From NCBI GenBank assembly GCA_963662175.1, contig OY759215.1, positions 31,746,066-31,810,065 of the forward strand: a stretch of DNA of 64,000 bases, in the 5' to 3' direction. The first letter of the stretch is position 1, and the number at the start of each line of letters is the position of its first letter. The translations under genes were made by a program, and so were the position numbers. The notes beneath the pieces are model-generated. The model ran no database searches, was not told the DNA's origin, and saw nothing but the letters and a program-made list of their open reading frames with translations. Shown piece by piece: positions 10,201 to 42,179 of this stretch. Source of the DNA: Aradus depressus (lineage: Eukaryota; Arthropoda; Insecta; Hemiptera; Aradidae).

Positions 10201-11030
10201 CAAAATTTTTGCCAAAAGTTAAATTTAATCCCTCCAATAATCTGTTTTCTATTTTCAAATTTGGTTTTGATCCTTCCAAAAATCTGTTTTGCAGTAATGT
10301 AAACTTCGTAATAATGCAAAATTCCTTCCAACCTCTTGAAAAATCTGTTTTTTCTATTACACAAATTTCCTTCTGATCACTCCAAATTTCTATTATGTAA
10401 TAATGCAAAATTCCTTCCAACCTCTCAAAAAATCTGTTTTTCTATTACACAAACTTTCTTCTGATCACTCCAAATTTCTATTATGTAATAATGCAAAATT
10501 CCTTCCAACCTCTCAAAAAATCTGTTTTTCTATTATACAAACTTCCTTCCGACCTCTCGAAAAATCTGTTCTTCTATTATACAAACTTCCTTCTCATCTC
10601 TCCAAAATTATATTTTGTTATAAAGGAAACTTTCTTCTGACCTCTCCAAAAGTCTGTTTTGTTATAGTGCAAAATTTAGGGCGCCGGTAGCTCAGTGGTA
10701 TGCGTGCTTGCCTTCTGAGCTCAAGGTAGTGGGTTCGAAATCCGGCCGAGGCCCTTAGTTTATTTTATCTGGGTGGTACAATAAACTTAAGCACGCCGTC
10801 CTACGGATAGGACGTTAAGCGATGGTCCCGAGCCTGTACAATGTCGGGTACTCGTTAAAGACCCCCTATCCTAGGTGAATAAAAATGTAGGGTGGGCAAA
10901 ATTTAGGAATCCCATATTAGAGTCGGCCTCATGTCCACGAAAGAGCGCTCTGGTATGACCTTGTAGTTAAAGTCCGGGCATGAGTCATAATAACGTAACT
11001 AACTAATGCAAAATTCCTCTGACCTTTAGA
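10201..11030 (+). repeat. Short-period (about 44 bp) tandem array, left arm
   Basis: The monomer is roughly CAAAYTTCCTTCYGAYCTCT followed by CCAAAAATCTGTTTTTCTAT and TATA. It is repeated about ten times to 10667 and resumes after the SINE at 11007. Pairs form 88-89-bp dimers: TAATGCAAAATTCC begins at 10312, 10401 and 10489. The segment GATCCTTCCAAAAATCTG matches the complement of the 78-bp array at 41755-42150, which sits at the equivalent place in the right arm. Confidence 0.85.
10677..11006 (+). mobile_element. SINE-A inserted in the 44-bp array
   Basis: The head GGGCGCCGGTAGCTCAGTGG, the B box GGGTTCGAAATCC and the full body are present. The tail is TAACGTAACTAACTAA, the alternative (TAAC)n type. 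Flanking repeats TGCAAAATT at 10668-10676 and 11007-11015 are the target-site duplication within an array monomer, so the SINE is younger than the array. Confidence 0.9.
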
Positions 11031-11195
11031 TAAAGATGTGTATAAGAAGAAAGAGAAAGGAAAATATTGAGAAGATTAAGAAAGAATCGTTAACTGAAAA
11101 AATAAGAGAAAAAACTAGACCAGAAGACATATAAATATCTGAAAGCCAACATTATAAATGAAATTATTGTAAATATAGTGGCGGGCAGCAAACCG

Positions 11196-11293
11196 GTGAA
11201 TACTAGTAGCTCATTGGTTACAAAAATTATTGTTCCTTATAAATAATATTTTTTTTTTGATCAGAAATAAGTTTTTTTGCATCATTCTTGCAG
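11196..11293 (+). other. Intron-like module L1 (98 bp)
   Basis: Donor CCG|GTGAATAC, acceptor ATTCTTGCAG|ATCAAAA. Same internal order as the other modules: GCTCATTGGTTAC, ATTATTGTTC, TATAAATAATAT, CAGAAATAA. Confidence 0.6.
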
Positions 11294-11477
11294 ATCAAAA
11301 AAATGGAATGGATATCAAAAAGAAGCCAGAAAACTGCATGTAGCCAGCAGAGAATACCCCAGAAGAATGAGAAGAGACACTATTGGAAAGAAGCTCGAAA
11401 ACTACCTAAATTAGTAAGAAGATGAAGAGAGAAAAACTGACCAGAAGACTAATATGTAAGTGCAAATACCTGAAAGC

Positions 11478-11574
11478 CTGAGTGCTTAGCTGATCACTTA
11501 CGATAACTATTGTTCATTTATAAATAATATATTGTTTTTATTCAGAAATAATTTTTGCTGCATTATTTTCAGAG
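11478..11574 (+). other. Intron-like module L2 with damaged donor
   Basis: Homologous to the other modules, but the donor reads CCTGAGTGC instead of GGTGAGTGC, losing the GT. The acceptor side is TTATTTTCAG|AGATCAAT. Confidence 0.55.
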
Positions 11575-12247
11575 ATCAATACATGGAATGGACATCAGAA
11601 AGAAGCCAGAGAATTAGTAAGAAGATGAAGAAAGAAAAACTGTCCAGAAAACAAATAAGTGCAAATGCCTGAAAGCCAAACAAGAATGAAGAAATCAAAC
11701 TGGAGGAAATAGTTCAAAGAAGATTTAGCCAGCATAGAATACCCCAGAAGAATGAGAAAAGACAATATTGGAAAGAAGCCCGAAATCTACCTAAATTAGT
11801 AAGAAGATGAAGAGAGGGAAAAATTCCAGAAGACAAATAATTGCAAATATCAGAATGTCATACAAGAATGAAGAAATGAAATTGGAGGAAACAGTTCAAA
11901 GAAGATTTAGCTCGCAGAAAATACCCCAGAAGAACGAGAAGAGAAAATATTGGAAAGAAGCCCGAAAACTAGATAAATTAGTGAGAATATGAAGAGAGAA
12001 AAAGTGGCCAGAAGACTAATAAGTGGATATATCTGAAAGCCAACCAAGAACGAAGAAATCAACCTGGAGGAAATAGTTCAAAGTAGATTAAGCCAGCAGA
12101 AAATACCCCAGAAGAAAGAAATATTGAAAAGATGTTGGAAGAATCGTTAACTGAAGAATTAAGAGAATAAAATAGGCCAGAAGACATATTAATATAAATC
12201 CTGCAAGCCGAAATATCAAATGAAAGACAGTGGCGTGCAGCGAACTG

Positions 12248-12338
12248 GTGAGTGTATTGCTCGAACTATAATTTTTGTCCATTATAAATAATTTATATTT
12301 TCTAATCAAAAATAATTTTGTCTGCAAAGTTTTTACAG
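12248..12338 (+). other. Intron-like module L3 (91 bp)
   Basis: Donor ACTG|GTGAGTGT, acceptor GTTTTTACAG|ATCAAAAA. The near-identical copy L5 lies 3,389 bp downstream. Confidence 0.65.
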
Positions 12339-12497
12339 ATCAAAAATCAGATTGGACATCTAAAAGAAGCGAGGAACCAACATAATATAGAGAGAAGTTG
12401 AGGACGATAAAATAGGCCAGAAGACATAAAAATCAAATACCTGAAATACAACATATCAAATGAAATTTATGGAAAGATAGTGGCGGGCAACAAATCG

Positions 12498-12594
12498 GTG
12501 AGTGCTTAGCTCATCAGTTACCATAATTATTGTTCATTTTAAAATAATATATTGTTTTTATTCAGAAATAATGTTTGCTGCATTATTTTCACAG
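12498..12594 (+). other. Intron-like module L4 (97 bp)
   Basis: Donor ATCG|GTGAGTGC, acceptor TTATTTTCACAG|ATCAATAC, with a pyrimidine-rich 3' end. The exon-like stretch between L3 and L4 (12339-12497) is 159 nt with stops in all three frames. Confidence 0.65.
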
Positions 12595-15500
12595 ATCAAT
12601 ACATGGAATGGACATCAAAATGAAGCCAGAGAATTAGTAAGAAGATGAAGAAAGAAAAACTGTCCAGAAAACAAATAAGTGCAAATGCCTGAAAGCCAAA
12701 GAAGAATGAAGAAATCAAACTGGAGGAAATAGTTCAAAGAAGATTTAGCCAGCAGAGAATACCCCAGAAGAACGAGAAGAGAAAATATTGGAAAGAAGCC
12801 CGAAAACTCGATAAATGAGTGAGAAGATGAAGAGAGAAAAAGTGGCCAGAAAACATAAAAGTGCAAATACCTGAAAGCAAAACAAGAATGAAGAAATCAA
12901 ACTGGAGGAAATAGTTCAAAGAAGATTTAGCCAGCAGAGAATACCCCAGAAGAATGAGAAGAGACAATATCGGAAAGAATCCCGAAAACTACCTAAATTA
13001 GTAAGAAGATGAAGAGAGATAAACTGACCAGAAGACAAATAAGTGCAAATGCCTGCAAGCGAAACAAGAATGAAGAAATCAAACTGGAGGAAATAGTTCA
13101 AAGAAGATTTAGCCAGCAGAGAATAGCCCAGAAGAATGAGAAGAGACAATATTGGAAAGAAGCCCGAAAACTACCTAAATTAGTAAGAAGATGAAGAGAG
13201 ATAAACTGACCAGAAGACAAATAAGTGCAAATGCCTGCAAGCGAAACAAGAATGAAGAAATCAAACTGGAGGAAATAGTTCAAAGAAGATTTAGCCAGCA
13301 GAGAATAGCCCAGAAGAATGAGAAGAGACAATATCGGAAAGAAGCCCGAAAACTACCTAAATTAGTAAGAAGATGAAGAGAGATAAACTGATCAGAAGAC
13401 AAATAAGTGCAAATACCTGAAGGCCAACCAAGGACGAAGAAATCAAACTGGAGGAAATAGTTCAAAGAAGATTTAGCCAGCAGAGAATAGCCCAGAAGAA
13501 TGAGAAGAGACAATATTGGGAAGAAGCCCGAAAACTACCTAAATTAGTAAGAAGATGAAGAGAGATAAACTGACCAGAAGACAAATAAGTGCAAATGCCT
13601 GCAAGCGAAACAAGAATGAAGAAATCAAACTGGAGGAAATAGTTCAAAGAAGATTTAGCCAGCAGAGAATACCCCAGAAGAACGAGAAGAGAAAATATTG
13701 GAAAGAAGCCCGAAAACTCGATAAATGAGTAAGAAGATGAAGAGAGAAAAAGTGGCCAGAAAACATAAAAGTGCAAATACCTGAAAGCCAAACAAGAATG
13801 AAGAAATCAAACTGGAGGAAATAGTTCAAAGAAGATAAGATTTAGCCAGCAGAGAATAGCCCAGAAGAATGAGAAGAGACAATATTGGAAAGAAGCCCGA
13901 AAACTCGATAAATGAGTAAGAAGATGAAGAGAGAAAAAGTGGCCAGAAAACATAAAAGTGCAAATACCTAAAAGCCAAACAAGAATGAAGAAATCAAACT
14001 GGAGGAAATAGTTCAAAGAAGATTTAGCCAGCAGAGAATAGCCCAGAAGAATGAGAAGAGACAATATCGGAAAGAATCCCGAAAACTACCTAAATTAGTA
14101 AGAAGATGAAGAGAGATAAACTGACCAGAAGACAAATAAGTGCAAATGCCTGCAAGCGAAACAAGAATGAAGAAATCAAACTGGAGGAAATAGTTCAAAG
14201 AAGATTTAGCCAGCAGAGAATAGCCCAGAAGAATGAGAAGAGACAATATTGGAAAGAAGCCCGAAAACTACCTAAATTAGTAAGAAGATGAAGAGAGATA
14301 AACTGACCAGAAGACAAATAAGTGCAAATGCCTGCAAGCGAAACAAGAATGAAGAAATCAAACTGGAGGAAATAGTTCAAAGAAGATTTAGCCAGCAGCG
14401 AATACCCCAGAAGAATGAGAAGAGACAATATCGGAAAGAATCCCGAAAACTACCCAAATTAGTAAGAAGATGAAGAGAGATAAACTGATCAGAAGACAAA
14501 TAAGTGCAAATACCTGAAGGCCAACCAAGGACGAAGAAATCAAACTGGAGGAAATAGTTCAAAGAAGATTTAGCCAGCAGAGAATAGCCCAGAAGAATGA
14601 GAAGAGACAATATTGGGAAGAAGCCCGAAAACTACCTAAATTAGTAAGAAGATGAAGAGAGATAAACTGACCAGAAGACAAATAAGTGCAAATGCCTGCA
14701 AGCGAAACAAGAATGAAGAAATCAAACTGGAGGAAATAGTTCAAAGAAGATTTAGCCAGCAGAGAATAGCCCAGAAGAATGAGAAGAGACAATATTGGAA
14801 AGAAGCCCGAAAACTACCTAAATTAGTAAGAAGATGCAGAGATATAAACTGACCAGAAGACAAATAAGTGCAAATGCCTGCAAGCGAAACAAGAATGAAG
14901 AAATCAAACTGGAGGAAATAGTTCAAAGAAGATTTAGCCAGCAGAGAATAGCCCAGAAGAATGAGAAGAGACAATATTGGAAAGAAGCCCGAAAACTACC
15001 TAAATTAGTAAGAAGATGAAGAGAGATAAACTGATCAGAAGACAAATAAGTGCAAATGTCTGCAAGCGAAACAAGAATGAAGAAATCAAACTGGAGGAAA
15101 TAGTTCAAAGAAGATTTAGCCAGCAGAGAATAGCCCAGAAGAATGAGAAGAGACAATATCGGAAAGAATCCCGAAAACTCTTTAAATTAGTATGAAGATG
15201 AAGAGAGATAAACTGACCAGAAGACTAATAAGTGCGAATATCTGATAGCCAAACACGAATGAAGAAATCAAACTGGAAGAAATAGTTCAAAGAAGATTTA
15301 GCTCGCAGAAAATACCCCAGAAGAACGAGAAGAGAACATATTGGAAAGAAGCCCGAAAACTAGATAAATTAGTGAGAATATGAAGAGAGAAAAAGTGGCC
15401 AGAAGACTAATAAGTGTATATATCTGAAAGCCAACCAAGAACGAAAAAATCAACCTGGAGGAAATAGTTCAAAGAAGATTAAGCCAGCAGAAAATACCCC

Positions 15501-15636
15501 AGAAGAAAGAAATATTGAAAAGATGTTGGAAGAATCGTTAACTGAAGAATTAAGAGAATAAAATAGGCTAGAACATATTAATATAAATCCTGCAAGCCGA
15601 AATATCAAATGAAAGACAGTGGCGTGCAGCGAACTG

Positions 15637-15727
15637 GTGAGTGTATTGCTCGAACTATAATTTTTGTTCATTATAAATAATTTATATTTTCTAATCAACA
15701 ATAATTTTGTCTGCAATGTTTTTACAG
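15637..15727 (+). other. Intron-like module L5 (91 bp)
   Basis: Near-identical to L3: donor ACTG|GTGAGTGT, acceptor GTTTTTACAG|ATCAAAAA. It belongs to the second copy of the about 3.39-kb higher-order repeat. Confidence 0.65.
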
Positions 15728-15886: not shown

Positions 15887-15983
15887 GTGAGTGCTTAGCT
15901 CATCAGTTACTATAATTATTGTTCATTTTTAAATAATATATTGTTTATATTCAGAAATAATGTTTGCTGCATTATTTTCACAG
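15887..15983 (+). other. Intron-like module L6 (97 bp)
   Basis: Near-identical to L4: donor ATCG|GTGAGTGC, acceptor TTATTTTCACAG|ATCAATAC. The exon-like gap from L5 is again 159 nt (15728-15886). Confidence 0.65.
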
Positions 15984-18286
15984 ATCAATACATGGAATGG
16001 ACATCAAAATGAAGCCAGAGAATTAGTAAGAAGATGAAGAGAGAAAAACTGTCCAGAAGACAAATAAGTGCAAATACCTGAAGGCCAACCAAGGACGAAG
16101 AAATCAAACTGGAGGAAATAGTTCAAAGAAGATTTAGCCAGCAGAGAATAGACCAGAAGAATGAGAAGAGACAATATTGGAAAGAAGCCCGAAAACTCCC
16201 TAAATTAGTAAGAAGATGAAGAGAGATAAACTGACCAGAAGACAAATAAGTGCAAATGCCTGCAAGCGAAACAAGAATGAAGAAATCAAACTGGAGGAAA
16301 TAGTTCAAAGAAGATTTAGCCAGCAGAGAATAGCCCAGAAGAATGAGAAGAGACAATATTGGAAAGAAGCCCGAAAACTACCTAAATTAGTAAGAAGATG
16401 AAGAGAGATAAACTCACCAGAAGACAAATAAGTGCAAATGCCTGCAAGCGAAACAAGAATGAAGAAATCAAACTGGAGGAAATAGTTCAAAGAAGATTTA
16501 GCCAGCAGAGAATAGCCCAGAAGAATGAGAAGAGACAATATCGGAAAGAAGCCCGAAAACTACCTAAATTAGTAAGAAGATGAAGAGAGATAAACTGATC
16601 AGAAGACAAATAAGTGCAAATACCTGAAGGCCAACCAAGGACGAAGAAATCAAACTGGAGGAAATAGTTCAAAGAAGATTTAGCCAGTAGAGAATAGCCC
16701 AGAAGAATGAGAAGAGACAATATTGGGAAGAAGCCCGAAAACTCCCTAAATTAGTAAGAAGATGAAGAGAGATAAACTGACCAGAAGACAAATAAGTGCA
16801 AATGCCTGCAAGCCAAACAAGAATGAATAAATCAAACTGGAGGAAATAGTTCAAAGAAGATTTAGCCAGCAGAGAATACCCCAGAAGAACGAGAAGAGAA
16901 AATATTGGAAAGAAGCCCGAAAACTCGATAAATGAGTAAGAAGATGAAGAGAGAAAAAGTGGCCAGAAAACATAAAAGTGCAAATACCTGAAAGCCAAAC
17001 AAGAATGAAGAAATCAAACTGGAGGAAATAGTTCAAAGAAGATAAGATTTAGCCAGCAGAGAATAGCCCAGAAGAATGAGAAGAGACAATATTGGAAAGA
17101 AGCCCGAAAACTCGATAAATGAGTAAGAAGATGAAGAGAGAAAAAGTGGCCAGAAAACATAAAAGTGCAAATACCTGAAAGCCAAACAAGAATGAAGAAA
17201 TCAAACTGGAGGAAATAGTTCAAAGAAGATTTAGCCAGCAGAGAATAGCCCAGAAGAATGAGAAGAGACAATATTGGAAAGAAGCCCGAAAACTCCCTAA
17301 ATTAGTAAGAAGATGAAGAGAGATAAACTGACCAGAAGACAAATAAGTGCACATATCCGAAAGCCAAACAAGAATGAAGAAATCAAACTGGAGGAAATAG
17401 TTCAAAGAAGATTTAGCCAGCAGAGAATAGCCCAGAAGAATGAGAAGAGACAGTATTGGAAAGAAGCCCGAAAACTCCCTAAATTAGTAAGAAGATGAAG
17501 AGAGATAAACTGACCAGAAGACAAATAAGTGCACATATCCGAAAGCCAAACAAGAATGAAGAAATCAAACTGGAGGAAATAGTTCAATGATGATTTAGCC
17601 CGCAGAGAATACCCCAGAAGAATGAGAAGTGACAATATTGGAAAGAAGCCCGAAAACTCCCTAAATTAGTAAGAAGATAAAGAAAGAAAAACTGGCCATA
17701 AGACAATACCTGAAGGCCAATCAAGAATGAAGAAATCTAACTCGTGGAAGTAGTTCAAAGAAGATTTAGCCATTTTAAAATACCCCAGAAGAATGAGAAG
17801 AGAAAATATTGGAATGAAGCCCGAAAACAACCTCAATTAGTAAGAAGATAAGAGAGACAAACTGACTAGAGGACAGGTAAGTGCAAATACCTGAAAGCCA
17901 ACTAAGAATGAAGAAATCGAACTGGAGGAAATAGTTCAAAGAAGATTTAGCCAGCAGAGAATAGCCCAGAAGAATGAGAAGAGACAATATTGGAAAGAAG
18001 CCCGAAAACTCCCTAAATTAGTAAGAAGATGAAGAGAGATAAACTGACCAGAAGACAAATAAGTGCACATATCCGAAAGCCAAACAAGAATGAAGAAATC
18101 GAACTGGAGGAAATAGTCCAAAGAAGAATTGGAGAGCTGAAAATACCCCTGAAGAGAAGTATTGAGAAGATGTAGAAAGAGTCGTTATTTGATAACGTAA
18201 GAGAAAAAATAGGCTAGAAGGCATTATATATATATAAATCCTGGAAACCAACATATCAAATGAAAGATAGTGGCGGGCGCAAACCG

Positions 18287-18383
18287 GTGAGTGCTTAGCT
18301 CATTAGTTATAATTATTATTGTTCGTTTATTAATATTATATTGTTTTTAATCAGAAGTAATTTCGTCTGCATTAATTTTACAG
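18287..18383 (+). other. Intron-like module L7 (97 bp)
   Basis: Donor ACCG|GTGAGTGC, acceptor ATTAATTTTACAG|AACAAAAG. The exon-like segment to L8 (18384-18539) is 156 nt; its first frame reads NKRWFGHQKEAKKHNIERR and then stops. Confidence 0.65.
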
Positions 18384-18539
18384 AACAAAAGATGGTTTGG
18401 GCATCAAAAAGAAGCCAAGAAACATAATATAGAGAGAAGATGAGGACGAGAAAATAGACCAGAATTCAAATGAGTGTTATTTCCTGAAACCCACCTATCA
18501 AATGGAATTATTAAAAATATAGTGGCTGGTATCGAACAG

Positions 18540-19088
18540 GTGAGTGCTTAGCTCATTAGTTACAATAATTATTGCTCATTTATAAATAACCAGCATCCAT
18601 CGAACACCTTAGCTCTTTATGCCCATATTTTGAGTAATGCCGAACGTTTTTTTTTTCAGCTAATTTTTTTTTATTGTTATTGCATAAGAGAGCTTCATTG
18701 CGATTTGTCAGGAGAATGTCATTGTCAAGTTGATTAATCATCCACTAAGGGAATGTTTAGTTCTTGGTTGGTAGGCCGATGCAGTAGACTTATGGGGTGC
18801 TGGTGGACGCCACCTATCGATGCTACTTTAACTACTCCCCACAAAAAACGCATTCGCGTTAGCTCCGATACACAAAATTCAAGTATTTTCTTTTAAAAAA
18901 ATGTAAAATAGAAATTTTTTCTGGCCTATAGCCTCAACGGAAACGTAAGGAATTCATAGAAAAAGAATATTGAAAATAGGTCCAGTAGTTTCTAAGTATA
19001 GCCCAAACATGAAACAAACGCTGTCTCTTTATATATAATAGATATATTGTTTTTAACAGAAATAATTTTGTCTGCATTATTGTTACAG
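18540..19088 (+). other. Intron-like module L8 split by an insertion
   Basis: It has the best donor of the set (ACAG|GTGAGTGC) and acceptor TTGTTACAG|ATCAAGAG. About 450 bp of foreign sequence (18590-19040) interrupts it after TATAAATAA; the module resumes at ATATATTGTTTTTAACAG. Confidence 0.65.
18590..19040 (+). mobile_element. RTE-like non-LTR 3' end or derived SINE
   Basis: It ends with GGTCCAGTAGTTTCTAAGTA, TAGCCCAAACATGAAACAAA and CTCTTTATATATAATAGAT. This arrangement (an 'AGTAGTTT...' phrase, then a CTCTTTATA..TATTAG-like terminus) is typical of RTE-group 3' ends. No protein-coding part is seen. The assignment rests on the 3' terminus alone. Confidence 0.4.
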
Positions 19089-19449
19089 ATCAAGAGATGG
19101 ATTGGACATCAAAATGAAACCAAGATTTCACATAAAACAGAGAGAAGATGAAGAGAAAGAAATAGGCCAGAAGATAAATATCTGATAGCCAACCAAAAAG
19201 GAAGAAATCAAACTAGAGCAAAAGTTCAAAGAATATCTAGCGTATTTTGACCAGCTGAAAAGACCACTGAGACGAAATGGAAAATAGGGTGATGTTGAAT
19301 AGTTGGTTAACTGAATGATGACGAGAAGAACATAGGCTCGAAAACAAAGTAGTGCAAGTCACTGAATATCAACGAACAAGGGAGAAATTGAAATTTGAGG
19401 AAATATTTCATTGATGTTTATACCATGGCTAACATATTGTCTCAGAAGA

Positions 19450-20670
19450 AGGCTAGTTGGAAGATATTAGCGTCGTTTCTGATTGCTACATGGAGTATAC
19501 GGAGAATTGAAGTTAGAATTTCTTACAATAACATGAGGTAATAAGGTTGAGTGATGGAGGAAGGCCGATCTTGTAGTGATATCCGAGAGGAAGACAAGAG
19601 TCGCCGGAGGAGGTCGGAGACTAGATGAGATGAAAAGTGTCAGGTGCTGAGGCAGATTGGGGCCAAGGGTTTTGGCGGAGGTAGTACCTTTGTTGGGGTA
19701 GACCCAGTACTGGTCCTCCCCGAAATCCAGGGGAGTATCTGAAGAGACGTGATAATATATTTCCAAAGACAGTACTCCCAGGACCGTCCGTGCGCGGTGA
19801 ATAGCCGCACCCTGCCAGAGGTGGCCCTGCTCTCAACAAAACACGGCGGATCTAGACCGGGAGGTCGATAAACATCCTTGGTGGTGTGCAGCAGCAGCCA
19901 CCAGTAATGGCGCGGAGCCGAAAATAGGAGGCCCATGAACTGTGAGGGCGGATGGAGTTCTACACATGCTGTGAAGGCGACTCATTTAATGGAAGACCAC
20001 CCGGAACTGAACGCCACGTTGGGGCGTTGTACTGAGCCACTGCAAGAAACTCGTTTGTCACCAAAAGAAAAATCAGACTGATTTATCAGAAACGACCTGG
20101 AAAGTGCCGGAAATTATTTTGTGAAGGCCAGCATATTAGCCAAGGTAACTTGAAACATAAATAGTAAGAAGTTGTCGCCAGCCCTGGAGAGCCGTCATTA
20201 AAGAGAGTCGCAGAAGGATGAAATAGAACTAAAATGAAGCCGATCAAGTAGAAGTGAAATGAAATACAGATACGTTTAATTAAATATCTCAAAGCCAACC
20301 AAGAAGAAGATAGTATCATATTTGAAAGAAAAGTGCAAAAACGATTGTGTATTTTGGCCAATACATCAGCTCATACGACTGACGATGGACGACGCCTATC
20401 CTGAAGTGTTGCCCAAGGAACAGGAAGAGTAGAGTTAGGCCTAATATGGAGGGAGTGAGATGAAGAACTGAGGAGAGTTTCCGGAGAACACAAGCAAACA
20501 GAAAAAAATGAGCCAGGTCTATCTCAGCACTGTCCGGAAGAAAAATGGACATACCCAACTTTTTTTTTTGGCGCCTAAAGTAAATACAGGACTTTACTAT
20601 GTCAACATTTCTGTGTTTTTTTGTTTTCAATATTTTTTTATTTTTCTTCAATGTACGGGTTGGTTGCGCT
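19450..20670 (+). repeat. 3' segment of the left arm
   Basis: It contains GGAGGTAGTACCTTTGTTGG, TCTAGACCGGGAGGTCGATA and AGGCCCATGAACTGTGAGGG. It closes with GAGATGAAGAACTGAGGAGA, GTTTCCGGAGAACACAAGC, an AACTGTCCGGAAGAAAAA-like segment and a T-rich TATGTCAACATTTCTG run. The part from 19921 on is duplicated at 24531-25350 and the whole is matched in inverse at 32250-32760. An antisense frame at 19640-19936 shares short peptides with the equivalent right-arm frame. Confidence 0.75.
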
Positions 20671-20699
20671 TACAACCCAAAATTGCATATGTTCATCAA

Positions 20700-20855
20700 G
20701 ACGGATTTTGATATACATGCGGAAACTCGTCCTGAAATGTCGTTTTAAAACACATATTTTTAGACTTTTCTTCGATTTACCTGAAAATTGTTAGCCCTAT
20801 AGAAAAATTGTTTCGTACAAATAATATTCCTTATTAAATGTCTAGTCTAGGACCA
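20700..20855 (+). repeat. RptB fragment
   Basis: GGATTTTGATATACATGCGG, CGTCCTGAAATGTCGTTTTA and TGAAAATTGTTAGCCCTATA match the distal part of RptB at 6265-6415. Confidence 0.8.
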
Positions 20856-22260: not shown

Positions 22261-22298
22261 GAAAACATCGGATCGGGTACGCGGGGTCATCTGTTGCA

Positions 22299-24420: not shown

Positions 24421-24530
24421 ACAACGACGGTGTCGCTAAGCGGACAAATATACAAACAACATTGCCAGCCTGCCAACTGATAAGTGCAGACCATATGTTT
24501 GTATATTATAAATCCCATCTTTATAATAAG

Positions 24531-25350
24531 AAAATAGGAGGCCCATGAACTGTGAGGGCGGATGGAGTTCTACGCATGCTGTGAAGGCGACTCATCTATT
24601 GGAAGAGCACCCTGAACTAAACTCCACGTTGGCGCGTTGTGCCAAGCAGACTGCAAAGACACATTTGTCACCAAAAGAAAAATCAGTCTGATTTATCAGA
24701 AACGACCTGGAAAGTGCTGAAAATTATTTTGAGTAATTAGGCCAGCATATTAGCCAAAAGATCTTGAAACGAAAATAGTAAGAAGTTGTCGCCGGCCCTG
24801 GAGAGCCTTCTTTGAAGAGAGTCGCAGAAGGATGAAATAGAACTGAAATGAAGCCGATAAAGTAGAAGTAAAATGAAATACAGATGATGAGAGTCGTAGA
24901 AGGCTTTGCAGAAGACAATCATTAAAAATGAACTGAATAGAAAAACAGTACAGATAAGTTAAATTAATTACCTGAAAGTCGGCCTAGAAGAGCATCCTAT
25001 GGAAGATAGAAAAAAAAATAGTCTATAGAAGATTCTGTGTATGTTGGCCAGCACATCAGCTCATAAAGATAATAAGGTATAAATACACAGCACACATGAT
25101 AGAAGATGGACGAAGCCAGTCCTTATGTGGGATGAAGAACTGACGAGAATTGCGGAGGATACAAGCGAACGGAAGGGGATGAGCCAGGTCTCTCTGTGGC
25201 TCTAGAGTCTAGACCATCAGAACTGTCCAAAAGAAAAAGGACCCATCCATATAGTGAATAAAGTGCTTTTTTTGTCAACATTTTTGAGTTTTTTTTGTTT
25301 TTAAGATTTTTTCTTTTACTTCAACGTTTGGACTGGTTGCTCATTGCAAC
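24531..25350 (+). repeat. Second copy of the left-arm 3' segment
   Basis: It starts at AAAATAGGAGGCCCATGAAC and parallels 19921-20670 through GCTGTGAAGGCGACTCAT, AGAAACGACCTGGAAAGTGC and AAGTTGTCGCC.GCCCTGGA to GGGATGAAGAACTGACGAGA and a terminal T-rich TTTGTCAACATTTTTGAG. One frame reads RRWTKPVLMWDEELTRIAED, reminiscent of a motif near the end of some LINE ORFs. The gypsy remnant lies between the two copies. Confidence 0.8.
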
Positions 25351-25444
25351 ACAAAACAGCATGCCTTCATCTTCCCGCAGTCCAAACTGTTGTTTGTTTA
25401 CTATCTAATGAAGTTATTGGAAAGATAGTGGCTGCCACGAAACA

Positions 25445-25529
25445 GTGAATGCTCAGCTCATTTTCTCTCGTTTATAAATAAATATATTGCTTTTAATCAG
25501 AAATAATCTTAGATGCATTTTCTTTACAG
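25445..25529 (+). other. Intron-like module L9 (85 bp), diverged
   Basis: Donor ACA|GTGAATGCTC, one G shorter than its relatives; acceptor TTTTCTTTACAG|ATCATAAA. Confidence 0.5.
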
Positions 25530-25539
25530 ATCATAAAAA

Positions 25540-26058: not shown

Positions 26059-26260
26059 GATGCATTGGACATCAAAAAGAAGCCAAGGAACTTAATAAAA
26101 TAGTGAGAAGTTGAAGAGAAAAAATAGATCAGAAAACATATAAATATTAATATCTGAAATCCAACATATAAAATGAAATTTATGGAAATATAGTGGAGGG
26201 CAGCAAACCGGTGAGTGCTTAGCTCCTAGTTACGATGATAATTGAGAAGACAAATAAGTT

Positions 26261-26463: not shown

Positions 26464-26739
26464 GAATTCAAAGAGCAGGAAATAGTTAAAGGAAGATTTT
26501 GCCAGAAGATTGAGAAGGGGAAGTATTTAGATGTCGAATGTATCGATAACTGAAAATTTAAGAGGAAACAATGGGCCAGAAGACAAATAAGTTCAAATAC
26601 TAAATTTTGGGATCCATTCATTACATCGCCAATAATTAAAAGGGAGATTAATAGGTGAACCTTATAGGCTTTGAATTTGAATGTAACATTTCATGTCGAT
26701 GTTTTCATTACATCGGCAGTTATCAAAGTGTTGATACTG

Positions 26740-32194: not shown

Positions 32195-32216
32195 AAGGAT
32201 ATATATATATATATAT
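32195..32216. repeat. (AT)n microsatellite
   Basis: Short alternating AT run next to the end of the right arm. Confidence 0.85.
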
Positions 32217-32249
32217 CTCGGGGAAGATGAAGATCTGGTGTATTTTGTT

Positions 32250-32760
32250 GAAATTAGCTACCAGACCAACGTTGAAGTAAAAGAAAATGTCTTGAAATCA
32301 AAAAACGCAAAAAACGTTGACAAAAAAAAATACCTTTATTTCCTTTTTCTTTTTTTTTTTCTATTTTCCATTTTTCTTTCGAACAGTTCTGAGAGTCTAG
32401 AACCAGAGATAGAGAATAGCTCATCTTATAACGTTCGCTCGTACCCACCGCAACTCTCCTCAGTTCTTCATCCCACTTTGTCTCAGGCTTCTCATCCTGT
32501 CTCTTGGACACTCCAGAATGGACTTTGTCCATCATTCTCGAAGTTCATGGAGAACATCATCCGCCCTCGCAGTTCATGGACCTCCCATCTTCAGCTCCAC
32601 GTCAATCTGTTGGCTGCTGATGCCCACCACCAGGGATGTTTATCGAACTCCCGGTCTAGATCCGCCGATTTTGGGGAGGACCAGTGCTGGGTCGACCCCA
32701 ACCCAAAGGTACTACCTTCGCCCAAATCCTTGGCACATTTCTAAGGTTTCTAAGGTTCTA
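32250..32760 (-). repeat. 3' segment of the right arm
   Basis: It matches 19630-20670 and 24531-25350 in inverse. On the minus strand one frame reads KWDEELRRVAVGTSERYKMS; the corresponding left-arm sequence gives DEELRRVSGEHKQTEKNE. The plus-strand frame at 32518-32760 contains DVYRTPGLDPP and GRTSAGSTPT, matching the antisense frame of the left arm. Confidence 0.75.
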
Positions 32761-33690: not shown

Positions 33691-35599
33691 TGATCTTCTT
33701 CATGATGTCTTCCTTTCTTGCTTCCACGATCGTTTTCCAGATCCTTAATCATCTTCTTTCTCTTCTTCCTTCTTATTCTTCTGGGGTAATCTGTTGGCAA
33801 TATTACGCTGAATATTATTGTAACTATTCCCCCAATTTGATTTCTTCATTTTTGGTTGGCTTCCAGGTATTTGCACTTGTTTGTCTTCTGGCCAGTTGTT
33901 CTCTCTTCATCTTCTTACTAATTTATGTAGTTTTCGGGCTTCTTTCCAATATTTTCTCTTCTCATTCTTCTGGGGTATTTTCTGCTGTACTTGCACTTCT
34001 CCTTTTTTGAACTATTTCCTCCAGTTTGATTTCTTCATTCTGGGTTGGCTTTCAGGTATTAGCACTTGTTTGTCTTCTGAACAGTTTTCCTCTCTTCATT
34101 TTCTTACTAATTTATGTAGTTTTCGGGCTTCTTTCCAATATTTTTTCTTCTCATTCTTCTGTGGTAATTTCTGTTGGCTAAATTTTCTTTGAACTGTTTC
34201 CTCTCTAGTTCGACTTTCTACATTTTTGGTTGGCTTCCAGGTATTCACACTTGTTTGTCTTCTGACCAGATGTTCTCTCATCTTCTTACTAATTTATGTT
34301 GATTTCGGGCTTCTTTCCAATATTTTTTTTTCTCATTCTTCTGGGGTATTTTCTGCTGGCTTCTTCTTTAAACTATTTCCTCCAGTTTGATTTTTTCATT
34401 CTTGGTAGGCTTCCAAGTATTTTCACTTGTTTGTCTTCCGGCCCGTTTTTCTCTCATCTTCTTCCTAATTTATGGACATTTCGGTCTTCTTTCCAATATT
34501 TACTCTTCTCATTCTTCTGGGGTATTTTCTGCTGTCTAAATCTTCTTTGAACTGTTTCCTCTCCAGTTTGATTTTCTTCATTCTAGTTGGCTTCCAGGTA
34601 TTTTCACTTGTTTGTCTTCTGAACACTTTTTCTCTCATCTTCTTCCTAATTGATGTTCATTTCGGGCTTCTTTCCAATATTTTCTCTTCTCATTCTTCTG
34701 GGGTATTTTCTGCTGGCTTCTTCTATGGACTGTTTCCTCTCTAGTTTGATTTTTTCATTCTAGGTTAGCTTTCAGGTATTTTCACTTGTTTGTTTTCCGG
34801 CCCGTTTTTCTCTCATCTTCTTCCCAATTTATGTACATTCGGCCTACATTCCAATATTTTCTCTTCTCATTCTTCCGGGGTATTTTCTCCTGGCTTAATC
34901 TTCTTTGATCTGTTTCTTCTCTAGTTCGATTGTCTTCATTTTTGGTTGGCTTTCAGGTATTTTCACTTGTTTGTCTTCCGGCCCGTTTTTCTCTCATCTT
35001 CTTCCTAATTTATGGACATTTCGGGCTTCTTTCCAATATTTTCCCCTCTCATTCTTCTGGGGTATTTTCTGCTCAGGATTTCAGGTATTTGTATTTATAT
35101 GTCTTCTAGCCTATTTTTTTCTCTTACTTTTTCAGTTAACGATTCTTTCTTCAATATGATCTTTTCTCTTTCTTCTGGGGTATTTTCTGCTGTCTGAATC
35201 TTCTTTGAACTGTTTCCTCTCTAGTTTGATTTTCTTTATTCTTGGTTGGCTTCCAGGTATTCACACTTGTTTGTCTTCTGACCAGATGTTCTCTCATCTT
35301 CTTACTAATTTATGTTGGATTTCGGGCTTCTTTCCAATATTCTTCTTCTCAATCTTCTGGGGTATTTTCTGCTGGCTTCTTCTTTAAACTATTTCCTCCA
35401 GTTTGATTTTTTCTTTCTTGATAGGCTTCCAAGATTTAGCACTAGTTTGTCTTCTGAACAGTTTTTCTCTCATCTTCTTCCTAATTTATGGACATTTCGG
35501 GCTTCTTTCCAATATTTACTCCTCTCATTCTTCTGGGGTATTCTCTGCTCCCTAAATCTTCTTTGAACTATTTCCTCTCTAGTTCGATTTTCTTCATTT

Positions 35600-37830
35600 T
35601 TGGTTGGCTTTCAGGTATTTTCACTTGTTTGTCTTCCGGCCCGTTTTTCTCTCATCTTCTTCCCAATTTATGTACATTCAAGCTACATTCCAATATTTTC
35701 TCTTCTCATTCTTCTGGGGTATTTTCTGCTGGCTTCTTCTTTGAACTATTTCCTCTCCAGTTTGATTTTTTTCATTCTTGGTTGGCTTCCAGGTATTTTC
35801 CCTTGTTTGTCTTTCGGCCAGTTTTTCTCTCATCTTCTTCGTAATTTATGTATATTTCGGGCTTCATTCCAATATTTTCTCTTCTCATTCTTCTGGGGTA
35901 TTTTCTGCTGGCTTCTTCTTTGAACTATTTCCTCTCCAGTTTGATTTTTTTCATTCTTGGTTGGCTTCCAGGTATTTTCCCTTGTTTGTCTTTCGGCCAG
36001 TTTTTCTCTCATCTTCTTCGTAATTTATGTACATTCGGGCTACATTCCAATATTTTCTCTTCTCATTCTTCTGGGGTATTTTCTGCTGGCTTCTTCTTTG
36101 AACTATTTCCTCTCCAGTTTGATTTTTTTCATTCTTGGTTGGCTTCCAGGTATTTTCCCTTGTTTGTCTTTCGGCCAGTTTTTCTCTCATCTTCTTCGTA
36201 ATTTATGTACATTCGGGCTACATTCCAATATCTTCTCTTCTCATTCTTCTGGGGTATTTTCTGCTGGCTTCTTCTTTGAACTATTTCCTCTCCAGTTTGA
36301 TTTTTTTCATTCTTGGTTGGCTTCCAGGTATTTTCCCTTGTTTGTCTTTCGGCCAGTTTTTCTCTCATCTTCTTCGTAATTTATGTACATTCGGGCTACA
36401 TTCCAATATTTTCTCTTCTCATTCTTCTGGGGTAATTTCTGCTGGCTTCTTCTTTGAACTATTTCCTCTCCAGTTTGATTTTTTTCATTCTTGGTTGGCT
36501 TCCAGGTATTTTCCCTTGTTTGTCTTTCGGCCAGTTTTTCTCTCATCTTCTTCGTAATTTATGTACATTCGGGCTACATTCCAATATTTTCTCTTCTCAT
36601 TCTTCTGGGGTAATTTCTGCTGTCTTCTTCTTTGAACTATTTCCTCTCCAGTTTGATTTTTTTCATTCTTGGTTGGCTTCCAGGTATTTTCCCTTGTTTG
36701 TCTTTCGGCCAGTTTTTCTCTCATCTTCTTCGTAATTTATGTACATTCGGGCTACATTCCAATATTTTCTCTTCTCATTCTTCTGGGGTATTTTCTGCTG
36801 GCTTCTTCTTTGAACTATTTCCTCTCCAGTTTGATTTTTTTCATTCTTGGTTGGCTTCCAGGTATTTTCCCTTGTTTGTCTTTCGGCCAGTTTTTCTCTC
36901 ATCTTCTTCGTAATTTATGTACATTCGGGCTACATTCCAATATTTTCTCTTCTCATTCTTCTGGGGTAATTTCTGCTGGCTTCTTCTTTGAACTATTTCC
37001 TCTCCAGTTTGATTTTTTTCATTCTTGGTTGGCTTCCAGGTATTTTCCCTTGTTTGTCTTTCGGCCAGTTTTTCTCTCATCTTCTTCGTAATTTATGTAC
37101 ATTCGGGCTACATTCCAATATTTTCTCTTCTCATTCTTCTGGGGTAATTTCTGCTGGCTTCTTCTTTGAACTATTTCCTCTCCAGTTTGATTTTTTTCAT
37201 TCTTGGTTGGCTTCCAGGTATTTTCCCTTGTTTGTCTTTCGGTCAGTTTTTCTCTCATCTTCTTCGTAATTTATGTACATTCGGGCTACATTCCAATATT
37301 TTCTCTTCTCATTCTTCTGGGGTATTTTCTGCTGGCTTCTTCTTTGAACTATTTCCGCTCCAGTTTGATTTTTTTCATTCTTGGTTGGCTTCCAGGTATT
37401 TTCCCTTGTTTGTCTTTCGGCCAGTTTTTCTCTCATCTTCTTCGTAATTTATGTATATTTCGGGCTTCATTCCAATATTTTCTCTTCTCATTCTTCTGGG
37501 GTATTTTCTGCTGGCTTCTTCTTTGAACTATTTCCTCTCCAGTTTGATTTTTTTCATTCTTGGTTGGCTTCCAGGTATTTTCCCTTGTTTGTCTTTCGGC
37601 CAGTTTTTCTCTCATCTTCTTCGTAATTTATGTACATTCGGGCTACATTCCAATATTTTCTCTTCTCATTCTTCTGGGGTATTTTCTGCTCGCTTCTTCT
37701 TTGAACTATTTCCTCTCCAGTTTGATTTTTTTCATTCTTGGTAGGCTTCCAGGTATTTTCCCTTGTTTGTCTTTCGGCCAGTTTTTCTCTCATCTTCTTC
37801 CTAATTTATGTACATTTGGGGCTTATTTCC
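35600..37830 (-). repeat. Homogenised core of the 178-bp array (about 12 units)
   Basis: GGTTGGCTTCCAGGTATTTT recurs about every 178 bp (plus-strand frame starts at 35778, 35957, 36135, 36669, 37203, 37381, 37560, 37738). Most units differ by only one or a few bases, for example GGTATTTTCTG versus GGTAATTTCTG. This implies recent amplification or gene conversion. Confidence 0.95.
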
Positions 37831-38036
37831 AATATTTACTCTTCTCATTCTTCCGGGGTATTATCTCTTGGCTTAATCTTCTTTGATCTGTTTCCTCTCT
37901 GGTTTGATTTTCTTCATTTTTTGTTGGCTTCCAGGTATTTGCAATTGTTTGTCTTCTGAACAGTTTTTCTCTCTTCATCTTCTTACTAAAGTCTTTAGTA
38001 TTCTGGCTTTTTTTCATGTCCATTCCGTCTTTTAAT

Positions 38037-38133
38037 CTGTAAAAATAATGCAGACAAAATCATTTCTGATTAAAAACAATATATTATTTAAAAATGAACA
38101 ATAATTAACATAACTAATGAGCAAAGCACTCAC
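38037..38133 (-). other. Intron-like module R1 (97 bp)
   Basis: Minus strand: donor ACTG|GTGAGTGC, acceptor ATTTTTACAG|ATTAAAAG. Homologous to L1-L8. Confidence 0.65.
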
Positions 38134-38283
38134 CAGTATGCTGCCAGTCCCTATCTTTCATTTGATATGTTGGATTTCAGGTATTTTTATTTATATGTCT
38201 TCTCGCCAATTTTTTCTTAATCATGTTCTCAATACATTATGTTGAACTCAGGTCTCTTTTTGATGTCTAATCCATTTTTTGAT

Positions 38284-38379
38284 CTGTAAAAAAAAAGGAG
38301 ACAAAATATTTCAGATTAAAAACAATATATTATTTATAAATGAACAATAATTATCGTAACTAATGAGCAAAGCACTCAC
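38284..38379 (-). other. Intron-like module R2 (96 bp)
   Basis: Minus strand: donor ACTG|GTGAGTGC, acceptor TTTTTTTACAG|ATCAAAAA. Confidence 0.65.
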
Positions 38380-39054
38380 CAGTATGCTGCCAGTCCCTAT
38401 CTTTCATTTGATATGTTGGATTTCAGGTATGTGTATTTATATATCTTCTGGCCTATTTTTTTCTCTTACTCTTTCAGTTAACTATCTTTCTTCAATCATA
38501 TTATGATCCTTTCTCTTTCTTCTGGGGTATTTTCTGCTGTCTAAATCTTCTTTGAACTGTTTCCTCTCCAGTTTGATTTTCTTCATTCTAGTTGGCTTCC
38601 AGGTATTTTCACTTGTTTGTCTTCAGGCCAGTTTTTCTCTCATCTTCTTCCTAATTTATGTACATTTGGGGCTTCTTTCCAATATTTTCTCTTCTCATTC
38701 TTCTGGGGTATTTTCTGCTGGCTTCTTCTATGAACTGTTTCCTTTTTTCATTCTCGGTTGGCTTTCAGGTATTAGCACTTGTTCGTCTTCTGGACAGTTT
38801 TTCTCTCTTCGTCTTCTTCCTAATTTATGTACATTTCGGGCTTATTTCCAATATTTACTCTTCTCATTTTCCGGGGTATTTTCTCCTGGCTTAATCTTCT
38901 TTGATCTGTTTCCTCTCTGGTTTGATTTTCTTCATTTTTTGTTGGCTTCCAGGTATTAGCACTTGTTTGTCTTCTGAACAGTTTTTCTCTCTTCATCTCC
39001 TTACTAATGTCTTTAGTATTCTAGCTTTTTTTCATTTCCATTCCATGTTTTAAT

Positions 39055-39151
39055 CTGTGAAAATAATGCAGACAAAATGATTTCTGATTAAAAACAATAT
39101 ATTATTTATAAATGAACAATAATTATCGTAACTAATGAGCTATGCACTCAC
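39055..39151 (-). other. Intron-like module R3 (97 bp)
   Basis: Minus strand: donor ACTG|GTGAGTGC, acceptor ATTTTCACAG|ATTAAAAC. Confidence 0.65.
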
Positions 39152-39966
39152 CAGTATGCTGCCAGTCCCTATCTTTCATTTGATATGTAGGATTTCAGGT
39201 ATTTGTATTTATATGTCTTCTGGCCTAGTTTTTTCTCTTAATTTTTCAGTTAACGATTCTTTCTTCAATATGATCTTTTCTCTTTCTTCTGGGGTATTTT
39301 CTGCTGTCTGAATCTTCTTTGAACTGTTTCCTCTCTAGTTTGATTTTCTTTATTCTTGGTTGGCTTCCAGGTATTCACACTTGTTTGTCTTCTGACCAGA
39401 TGTTCTCTCATCTTCTTACTAATTTATGTTGGATTTCGGGCTTCTTTCCAATATTCTTCTTCTCAATCTTCTGGGGTATTTTCTGCTGGCTTCTTCTTTA
39501 AACTATTTCCTCCAGTTTGATTTTTTCATTCTTGATAGGCTTCCAAGATTTAGCGCTAGTTTGTCTTCTGAACAGTTTTTCTCTCATCTTCTTCCTAATT
39601 TATGGACATTTCGGGCTTCTTTCCAATATTTACTCTTCTCATTCTTCTGGGGTATTCTCTGCTCCCTAAATCTTCTTTGAACTATTTCCTCTCTAGTTCG
39701 ATTTTCTTCATTTTTGGTTGGCTTTCAGGTATTTTCACTTGTTTGTCTTCCGGCCCGTTTTTCTCTCATCTTCTTCCCAATTTATGTACATTCGGGCTAC
39801 ATTCCAATATTTTCTCTTCTCATTCTTCTGGGGTATTTTCTGCTGGCTTCTTCTTTGAACTATTTCCTCTCCAGTTTGATTTTTTTCATTCTTGGTTGGC
39901 TCATCATGTTCCCGGTACATTATATTGAATCTTGGCCTCTTTTTGATGTCTAATCCATTTTTTGAT

Positions 39967-40062
39967 CTGTAAAAAAAATGCAGACAAAATATTTCAGATT
40001 AAAAACAATATATTATTTATGAATGAACAATAATTATCGTAACTAATGAGCAAAGCACTCAC
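39967..40062 (-). other. Intron-like module R4 (96 bp)
   Basis: Minus strand: donor ACTG|GTGAGTGC, acceptor TTTTTTTACAG|ATCAAAAA. Confidence 0.65.
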
Positions 40063-40212
40063 CAGTATGCTGCCAGTCCCTATCTTTCATTTGATATGTT
40101 GTATTTTAGGTAATTGTATTTATATGTCTTCTCGCCTATTTTTTCCTCATCATGTTCCCGGTACATTATATTGAATCTTGGCCTCTTTTTGATGTCTAAT
40201 CCATTTTTTGAT

Positions 40213-40308
40213 CCGTAAAAAAAATGCAGACAAAATATTTCAGATTAAAAACAATATATTATTTATGAATGAACAATAATTATCGTAACTAATGAGCAAA
40301 GCACTCAC
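40213..40308 (-). other. Intron-like module R5 with damaged acceptor
   Basis: Donor ACTG|GTGAGTGC is intact, but the acceptor reads TTTTTTACGG|ATCAAAAA, AG having become GG. Otherwise it is nearly identical to R4. Confidence 0.6.
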
Positions 40309-41386
40309 CAGTATGCAGCCCGCCACTATATTTCCAATAATTTTATGTTGGATTCCAGGTATTTATATATATATGTCTTATGGTTTATTTGTTTCGCTTA
40401 CTTTTTCAGTTAATGATTCTTTCTTCATCGTCTCAATATTTTTCTTCTCATTCTTCTGGGGTGTTCTCTGCTGGACAAACCTATTCGATATATTTCTCTA
40501 GTTTGATTTCTTCATTTTTGGTTGGCTTACAGGTATTTGCACTTGTTTGTCTTCTGGACAGTTTTTCTCCTTCATCTTCTTACTAATTTATGTAGTATTC
40601 GGGCTTCTTTCCAATATCTTCTCTTCTCTTTCTTCTCGGTTATTTTCTGCTGGCTAATTCTTATTTGAACTGTTTTCTCTCGAGTTTGATTTTCTTCATT
40701 CTTGGTTGGCTTCCAGGTATTTGCACTTGTTTGTTTTCTGGTCAGTTTTTCTCTCTTCATCTTCTTACTAATTTATGTAGTTTTCGGGTGTCTTTCTAAT
40801 ATTTTCACTGCTCATTCTTCTGGGGTGTTCTCTGCTGGTTAAACCTATTAGATATATATCTCTAGTTTGATTTCTTCCTTTTTGGTTGGCTTCCATGTAT
40901 TTGCACCTTTTTTTCTTCTGAACAGTTTTGTCTCTCTTCATTTTCTTACTAATTTATGTAGTTTTCGGGCTTCTTTCAAATATTTTCTCTTTTCTTTCTT
41001 CTAGGTTATTTTCTGCTGGCTAAATCTTCTTTGAACTATTTCCTCCAGTTTGATTTTTCCATTCAGTTCGATTGTTATCATTTCCAATCTTCTCTTCCAT
41101 TCGTTTCTTCATAGTAGTAATGGCTACGACTGGTAGTAGTAGTAACTCATAGCCTCTACATCTATATCTATAATTTTTCTCCCTTCTTCTCTTTCTGAAC
41201 TAACCGTCTGCCCAACATGCATAACATTTTTCTGGGAGTTCAGGACTATTGCATTAAATCTGATTTCTTTTCGTGATTGGCGTAAAGTTATTTACACTTC
41301 TCTGTATTTATTTTCTGACCTAGTTAGCTGCAGGTAGAACTGTGGAGTTCCATGGCTTCCATTTGATGTCCAATTCAATTTTTGAT

Positions 41387-41484
41387 CTATATAAATAAAA
41401 CAGTCAAAATTAATTCTGATTAAAGACAATTTAATATTTATAAATGAAGAATCGTTATTATTTATGAGCGAATCGCTCAAGTAC
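41387..41484 (-). other. Intron-like module R6 (98 bp), most diverged
   Basis: Minus strand: donor AACAG|GTACTTGAGC, acceptor TTTATATAG|ATCAAAAA. GT and AG are both kept despite substitutions in between. Confidence 0.6.
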
Positions 41485-41754
41485 CTGTTAGTTGCCCACC
41501 ACTACTTTCCCAATAATATAGTTTGATAATTGTTATTCTCATATAATTCTAATTTGTGATATGGACTATATATTTTAGGAGGATATAGTTTAGATGTTAC
41601 TTCAAATTAAACTGATTTTTGTCCTAGAAATAACACATAAAAAAACAGAGAGGTTAGCTATACAATTTATTCAAAGATACTGTGATGAGGAACTTAAGAA
41701 AAAAATTAGCTATCGAACTCCAATAAAAATTTGACTGTACTACTTTATAGCCCC

Positions 41755-42150
41755 GATGTTTGCAAGGAGCAAAATGCATAACAGGAAAACATATTTTTGG
41801 AAGGATCCAAAGGAAGATTGCATTATAGCCCAGATATTTGCAAGGAGCAAAATGCATAACAGGAAAACACATTTTTGGAAGGATCCAAAGCAAGCTTGCA
41901 TTATAGCCCAGATTTTTGCAAGGAGCAAAATGCATAACAGAAAAACAGACTTTTGGAAGAATCCAAAACAAGCTTGCTTTGTAGCCCAGATTAATGCAAG
42001 GAGCAAAATGCATAACAGGAAAACTGATTTTTGGAAGAATCCAAAGCAAGCTTGCATTATAGCCCAGATTTTTGCAAGGAGCGAAATGCATAACAGGAAA
42101 ACAGATTTTTGGAAGGATCTAAAGCAAGCCTGCTTAATAGAAAACAGATT
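41755..42150 (-). repeat. 78-bp tandem array, 5 units, right arm
   Basis: TGCAAGGAGCAAAATGCATA begins at 41761, 41839, 41917, 41995 and 42073, exactly 78 bp (26 codons) apart. The period is a multiple of three, so frames stay open on both strands (144 codons plus, 178 and 145 codons minus). The plus-strand repeat is ARSKMHNRKT-FWK-PK. On the minus strand it contains GGATCCTTCCAAAAATCTG, linking it to the 44-bp array of the left arm. Confidence 0.9.
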
Positions 42151-42179
42151 TGCGGTGTGGTATTCAAACTGTATATTAT

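Follow-up and report, generated by a model that had tools for sequence, protein, structure and literature searches.

Putative non-coding RNA genes whose exons carry amplified repeats: a local family in the genome of Aradus depressus

A stretch of 64,000 nucleotides from the hemipteran insect Aradus depressus (assembly GCA_963662175.1, contig OY759215.1, hereafter C2, positions 31746066-31810065; referred to as the window) contains purine-rich tandem repeats embedded in long, ordered units. These are probably non-coding RNA genes, spliced and polyadenylated, of one local family whose exons have grown by repeat amplification. In this genome of 698 Mb and 74 contigs, four units – one of them broken – and one relic carry their parts in one order. 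The architecture of the units is well supported, and we infer for them transcription by RNA polymerase II, splicing, nuclear retention, and a function. In these units, satellite DNA resembles a component of genes rather than junk beside them.

Two units form the arms of the window, the left spanning 9,916-20,718 (+) and the right 42,406-32,205 (-), and local alignment places their parts in one order. The initial annotation had proposed such ordered common parts, and the same-strand matches with their order kept bear this out, although the arms extend further out than the borders of 10.2 and 42.17 kb originally given. Identity differs by part: about 61% in the 5′ flank with its short-period array (9916-10539 / 42406-41775, E = 6e-42), about 81% in the long satellite match (11479-15598 / 39150-35076, bit score 3686), 62-68% in the original 3′ parts (19497-19640 / 33106-32968, 68%; 20384-20718 / 32533-32205, 62%, E = 5e-20), and 83-88% in a piece derived from a long interspersed nuclear element (LINE; 19662-19727 / 32734-32667, 88%; 19824-19964 / 32687-32548, 83%). 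Tandem Repeats Finder (TRF) reports 182-bp arrays in the left arm, 178-181-bp arrays in the right, and a short-period array in each (Table 1). Intron modules and satellite units align many-to-many between the arms, so that the case for colinearity lies in the order in which the classes of parts occur and not in a one-to-one map of repeats. The common material nonetheless extends beyond the satellite to the 5′ flank and 3′ parts, and since these single-copy matches have E values from 1e-13 to 6e-42, chance is excluded. That the convergent layout is an artefact of assembly is unlikely, because the two arms are about 20-40% divergent and a further copy is situated about 0.67 Mb from the window.

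The 5′ ends of the left unit, the right unit, and that further copy (G4) share a promoter-like stretch. From -60 to +40 of a putative start (+1, at AGTCYGAT) the three align ungapped, with 82 of 100 positions identical between left and G4, 62 between left and right, and 63 between right and G4; over longer distances the 5′ end of G4 is 71% identical to the left unit (428 nt) and 64% to the right (444 nt). The TCAGTC at the right-arm start fits what we take to be the arthropod initiator consensus. The predicted exon 1 is 65 nt long in the left unit, 68 nt in the right, and 63 nt in G4, and ends in ATGCTC(N8)/GTRAGT in each. Exon 2 follows a pyrimidine-rich AG and is 71% purine in the left unit, 57% in the right, and 70% in G4.

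Beyond exon 2, purine-rich exons alternate with short intron modules, of which the window holds 17 matches, two being the halves of one split module. The intron-like modules described in the initial annotation are thus present, with a wider size range than the 96-98 bp proposed: the 12 complete modules measured in the arms are 91-98 bp long, and nine of these start with GTGAGTG and end with ACAG. Besides intron 1, the left unit has six complete modules, another that lacks GT, and a split one; the right unit has six (one without AG), and G4 has 32. Composition switches at the intron borders, with purine fractions of 0.39-0.45 in the introns and 0.66-0.72 in the exons between them in both arms. 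A purine skew above 0.15 occurs in 27 of 526 1-kb intervals (264 kb), and 25 of these 27 start inside units.

All four copies share a poly(A)-like 3′ end with AATAAA (AAGTAAATAC in the left unit), followed by TTTGTCAAC or ATGTCAAC and a T/G-rich stretch, and TGTCAAC is common to the four. One of them is a third, broken copy in the window center (24,530-26,600, + orientation) that was overlooked when the center was taken to be filled by mobile elements only. A simple inverted duplication is not needed to account for the arrangement, because the family also has members elsewhere. Two of the landmarks listed for the arms in the initial annotation, the GTAGTACC and TCTAGACCGGGAG segments, belong to a fragment from the 5′ part of a dispersed LINE. 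Positions 19660-19931 match at least 38 dispersed places at 76-89% identity (among the 40 that were scored of 77 candidates), and six dispersed copies compared are 97-99% alike. Three copies that were followed lead into the endonuclease-reverse transcriptase frame of a LINE, with named protein relatives in Cacopsylla, Rhodnius, Diaphorina, and aphids, and others in moths, beetles, and flies. The fragment is present in the left, right, and center copies (in the last for 80 nt only, at about 73%), and a probe from the G4 tail gave no match to it, which suggests that these three are closer to one another than to G4.

G4 was found with a probe from the left unit (12120-12640), which matched the window copies, C2:31078601-31087698 (minus strand), and a relic at C4:5888936-5889316 on another chromosome. 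It spans approximately 31.077-31.089 Mb of the same chromosome as the window and repeats the order of a promoter-like stretch, exon 1, a long intron 1, purine-rich exons with short introns, a repeat of about 183 bp, and a poly(A)-like end that aligns with the 3′ ends of the other units. Between exon 2 and the tail lie about 33 tandem exon-plus-intron units; TRF gives 5.1 copies of 275 bp and 27.6 copies of 287 bp, and a pattern search recovers 32 introns (78-87 bp) and 31 exons, most of which (29) are 188 or 200 nt long, while the remaining two have 199 and 401 nt. The purine fraction is 0.40 in these introns and 0.62 in the exons. The tail exon has five starts of a 183-184-bp repeat that is 66-67% identical to the left satellite. 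The repeat has been amplified within the exon in the left and right units, and the exon together with its intron in G4, so exons have been amplified in two ways. The search for further copies that had been recommended thus yielded a separate locus with the same order from promoter-like stretch to poly(A)-like end, and both the descent of the copies from one ancestral transcription-unit-like locus and the suggestion of an undescribed satellite/RNA gene family are well supported by it.

A second probe of the genome with the G4 tail (1421 nt) gave no further place. By these two probes, whose counts are lower bounds, the repeat or module occurs only in these units, at two places on one chromosome, and in the C4 relic. 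In 200 kb of sequence beside the window, searched in 20 pieces, there was no further unit and only three short matches of 69-120 nt, two to a right 5′ probe and one to a right 3′ probe. Classical satellite DNA forms long arrays at many places with no fixed flanking order; the units here have a fixed order of parts and common flanks, and occur at only two places plus the relic. A genome-wide satellite was rejected on the lack of further places for the G4 tail. The relic adjoins an unrelated 91-bp satellite (C4:5889460-5892500, at least 33 copies at 99%).

Table 1. Coordinates of predicted parts of the left, right, and center copies in the window
Feature	Position	Strand	Remarks
TAGCAACAT, left	9994..10002	+	-48 to -40 from putative start; also in G4
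TAGCAACAT, right	42337-42329	-	-48 to -40 from putative start
Left predicted exon 1, 65 nt	10042..10106	+	Initiator-like AGTCTGAT to 5′ splice site ATGCTCCGTCTGTG/GTAAGT
Left predicted intron 1	10107..11029	+	Pyrimidine-rich short-period array 10308-10676; tRNA-like SINE ~10678-11002
Left predicted exon 2, purine-rich	11030..11195	+	After 3′ splice site CTGACCTTTAG
Left intron module, 98 bp	11196..11293	+	GTGAAT...GCAG
Left intron module	11478..11573	+	GT lost
Purine-rich 182-bp repeat array	11612..12116	+	2.8 copies (TRF)
Left intron module, 91 bp	12248..12338	+	
Left intron module, 97 bp	12498..12594	+	
Purine-rich 182-bp array	12632..15507	+	15.8 copies; within predicted exon 12595-15636
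Left intron module, 91 bp	15637..15727	+	
Left intron module, 97 bp	15887..15983	+	
182-bp array	16021..18155	+	11.8 copies; within predicted exon 15984-18286
Left intron module, 97 bp	18287..18383	+	
Split left intron module	18519..19121	+	Halves 18519-18590 and 19022-19121; ~430 bp of other DNA between
LINE fragment, 5′ part	19659..20015	+	Not original to unit
Left shared 3′ end	20384..20718	+	AAGTAAATAC (20578), TATGTCAACATTT (20598), T/G-rich stretch
Center copy, 3′ end of unit	24530..25376	+	AATAAA (25257), TTTGTCAAC (25271)
Center copy, remainder	25402..26600	+	Module remnants 25424-25538 and 26190-26245; purine-rich exon; 29-bp array 26261-26468
Right shared 3′ end	32205..32533	-	AATAAA (32340), TTTGTCAAC (32324), T/G-rich stretch
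Fragment, 5′ part of same LINE	32579..32734	-	
Right main purine-rich array, 178-181 bp	33832..37982	-	
Right intron modules (six)	38037..41484	-	Alternating with purine-rich exons
Right modules	41484-41387, 40308-40213, 40062-39967	-	First starts GTACTTG; second without AG
Right modules	39151-39055, 38379-38284, 38133-38037	-	
Repeat arrays within right exons	40435-41024, 39278-39901, 38578-39008	-	
Right predicted exon 2	41485..41623	-	After 3′ splice site TTATTTCTAG
Right predicted intron 1	41624..42221	-	Short-period array 41745-42140
Right predicted exon 1, 68 nt	42222..42289	-	Initiator-like TCAGTCTGAT to ATGCTCTTGCTTTT/GTGAGT

The window also contains several other repeats and reading frames. 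Remains of a gypsy-type retroelement (20900-23650) lie between the left unit and the center copy, with an open reading frame (ORF) at 21476-22123 that has RNase H and weak reverse transcriptase domain matches, and a large near-perfect palindrome around CAGAATGTCCTTGGACATTCTG was seen by eye at approximately 22310-22590. A tRNA-derived family resembling short interspersed nuclear elements (SINE; GGCGCCGGTAGCTCAGTGGTA...GGTTCGAA) is scattered at 4862-5206, 6868-7211, 10678-11002, 53707-54059, 56687-57018, 62185-62581, and other places, and a second tRNA-like repeat is in tandem at 44587-45017. An 82-bp tandem array (7785-8281, 6.1 copies, 99% identity) is unrelated to the units and absent from the 200 kb searched beside the window. 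A lysine-rich ORF of 375 aa (57577-58704) matches nothing in Pfam, and a search for homologues at E 0.001 gave none. Exact-pattern scans of viral contigs gave no match in any case.

The evidence that the intron modules are spliced is indirect. Among 15 aligned rows (12 arm modules, one center, and two G4, excluding the GT-less left module at 11478 and partial modules), 14 of 15 retain GT and 13 of 14 retain AG, compared with a mean retention of 0.80 over 96 intron dinucleotides; this is weak evidence by itself, because 17 and 19 of the 96 do equally well. GT (34/34) and AG (32/32) are intact in the G4 array among sites found by a loose pattern, which fixes neighboring letters, in units that differ by only about 2%. 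Introns of G4 are 80-93% identical to those of the left and right units (shuffled, 74%), and the predicted intron is the better conserved part of the unit. In most of 15 aligned modules, its first 17-18 nt can fold into a hairpin that conceals the 5′ splice site (GUGAGU paired with GCUCAU/C, e.g. in 12498-12594); 94.4% of cells pair, with no covariation and not above shuffles.

The spliced models have no coding capacity beyond that of shuffled sequence. The longest sense ORF reaches 67 aa in the left model and 93 aa in the right, compared with shuffle medians of 70 and 73 and maxima of 124 and 116; in the G4 array exons it is 20 aa, and every frame of their consensus contains stops. The right arm has unspliced ORFs of 135-178 aa in its repeat array, intron 1, and 3′ end, with no counterpart of like length in the left arm (95/98 aa) or G4 (35/45 aa). 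A scan of the window gave no Rfam match at gathering score, and a known Rfam RNA in the window was rejected on this ground.

Several observations weigh against a family of functional RNA genes. Short exons of G4 are 72-78% identical to those of the left and right units, where shuffled sequences reach 75.5%, and some predicted exons, such as right exon 2 and the left 3′ tail with its insertions (57% purine each), are not purine-rich. AG is lost in one right-arm module, and GT in one left-arm module. A 112-nt probe across an exon-exon junction revealed no intronless retrocopy and matched as separate halves only, with the exception of one 64-nt match that passes the junction by 8 nt at 80% identity. 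A test of mutation direction in 27 left and 30 right repeat units gave no consistent selection on purines: changes per site from purine to pyrimidine and the reverse are 0.31 and 0.31 (left) and 0.35 and 0.50 (right), and those in singletons are 0.23 and 0.16 (left) and 0.14 and 0.30 (right). Within single repeat units the motifs are only marginally enriched: for AGAAGA, P is about 0.05 in either arm, and for GAAGAA it is 0.33 and 0.11. In the G4 tail exon neither hexamer is more frequent than in the highest simulation. An SR- or Tra2-type protein partner is a guess from motif resemblance.

The strongest alternative, which we consider rather unlikely, is that the units are dead relics of a once-active spliced gene, coding or not, that was duplicated and had its repeats expanded by unequal exchange, and that is now untranscribed, satellite-like DNA with fossil splice sites. 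The absence of reading frames beyond shuffles, the lost GT and AG, the insertions within units (SINE, LINE fragment, split intron module), and purines lacking a mutational signature of selection speak for this reading. However, the promoter stretch, the exon-1 5′ splice site, and the poly(A) region can still be recognized in three to four loci with flanks that otherwise share 60-70% identity, splice sites are kept in the recent array of G4, and the retention of GT and AG above the intron mean argues weakly in the same direction. That the units are precursors of small RNAs – a PIWI-interacting RNA (piRNA)-type cluster, or repeat-derived small RNAs from pyrimidine and purine strands – is improbable. 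They are repeat-rich, non-coding, and strand-asymmetric, and the convergent left and right units could yield antisense overlap, but typical piRNA clusters would not be expected to have a conserved multi-intron architecture. A family of non-autonomous mobile elements that carry tandem repeats internally is more improbable still: there are several copies in both orientations, and the window units carry the LINE 5′ fragment, but terminal inverted or long terminal repeats are lacking, save for a weak 55-nt direct match at the ends of the left unit, and the genome probes, whose counts are lower bounds, located the family at just two sites of a single chromosome and in the relic. The copies also keep their introns, and thus did not arise by retroposition of spliced RNA; a transposable element was rejected for want of terminal repeats and of dispersed copies. 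Protein-coding genes with repeated exons are the least probable reading and were rejected, for although intron ends are mostly canonical, short ORFs were seen by eye near exon 1, and the right arm has its longer unspliced ORFs, the 178-183-bp repeat units are mostly not multiples of three, the spliced ORFs are at shuffle level, the G4 exon consensus is stopped in all frames, and the right-arm ORFs lack counterparts.

If the units are RNA genes, each would start at an initiator-type promoter with a leader exon of 63-68 nt, continue through a long intron 1 into mostly purine-rich exons parted by closely similar introns of 78-98 bp, and end at a poly(A) site. The unit of about 182 bp would have been amplified inside exons in the left and right genes, and the exon together with its intron in G4 (about 33 units). 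Splicing would yield RNAs of approximately 9 kb from the left and right genes, which may be kept in the nucleus. AGAAGA occurs 144 times in 6.6 kb of left exon and 141 times in 7.1 kb of right exon, where a first-order Markov model predicts 50 and 43, and AGAAGA and GAAGAA resemble sites of SR and Tra2-type proteins. With more than 100 AGAAGA sites, each RNA could act as an architectural RNA, a multivalent scaffold or sponge that binds SR-type or Tra2-type proteins. Because of this enrichment, and by analogy with HSATIII and hsr-omega, a scaffold or sponge for RNA-binding proteins is the most likely action, with Firre as a further model. Going further, we suggest tentatively, and with more doubt than belief, a fast-evolving family of genes for spliced non-coding RNA in which satellite grows only inside exons or as exon-plus-intron units, such that splicing and exon identity rather than the centromere limit its growth, and whose repeat RNA would serve splicing proteins of the SR/Tra2 type as a scaffold or sponge. 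If true, such a sponge could link the family to stress response or sex-specific splicing. Paralogues that amplify related exons in two ways would provide a natural experiment on array origin, splicing constraint, and the conserved part of the RNA, and arrays masked as satellite may be exons.

Repeat-bearing non-coding RNA with local repeats is a known kind, and to our knowledge the architectural RNAs of this type are mostly single genes. Among the papers listed in searches of a literature that covers few subscription papers, none describes paralogues in which satellites are confined to exons or exon and intron form arrays together; the nearest listed is Firre. Long non-coding RNAs of the Firre type bind hnRNPU and are retained in the nucleus, and hsr-omega is a heat-inducible nuclear transcript that forms speckles. 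The intron of hsr-omega is reportedly the most strongly conserved sequence of its gene, to go by the title of Garbe and Pardue in 1986, and in the units here too the intron is the better conserved part. The nonamer ATAGGTAGG, which we take to be an hsr-omega motif, is absent from the arm exons.

In Drosophila, hsr-omega is a non-coding gene in which a leader exon and an intron precede a long run of tandem repeats (PMC9865238), and all of these parts are also predicted in the units here. It differs in being a single gene whose only intron is about 700 nt long and whose 280-bp repeats follow the second exon, whereas the units form a gene family with many short introns and 178-184-bp repeats, which in G4 contain the intron. 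Exon 1 of hsr-omega also has a short ORF of 23-27 codons, for which the predicted exon 1 of 63-68 nt is too short. HSATIII, one of the short-tandem-repeat architectural RNAs, is a purine-rich repeat RNA with SR-protein binding (PMC7151548), and the predicted purine-rich repeat RNA here could likewise bind many copies of SR proteins; the HSATIII repeat is GGAAU, whereas that of the units is about 182 bp with AGAAGA/GAAGAA and lies in predicted intron-bearing genes. The local repeats of mammalian Firre occur mainly at one locus, with the RRD in seven of 13 human and 11 of 23 mouse exons (PMC4820808). The repeats here are also confined to their locus, within the lower bounds of the two probes, and splice signals and composition predict a place for them in exons of a putative spliced transcript. 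As we understand it, the RRD copies of Firre stand in separate exons of one X-linked mammalian gene, whereas a single predicted exon of the units here has up to about 16 copies, and the family comprises several paralogues.

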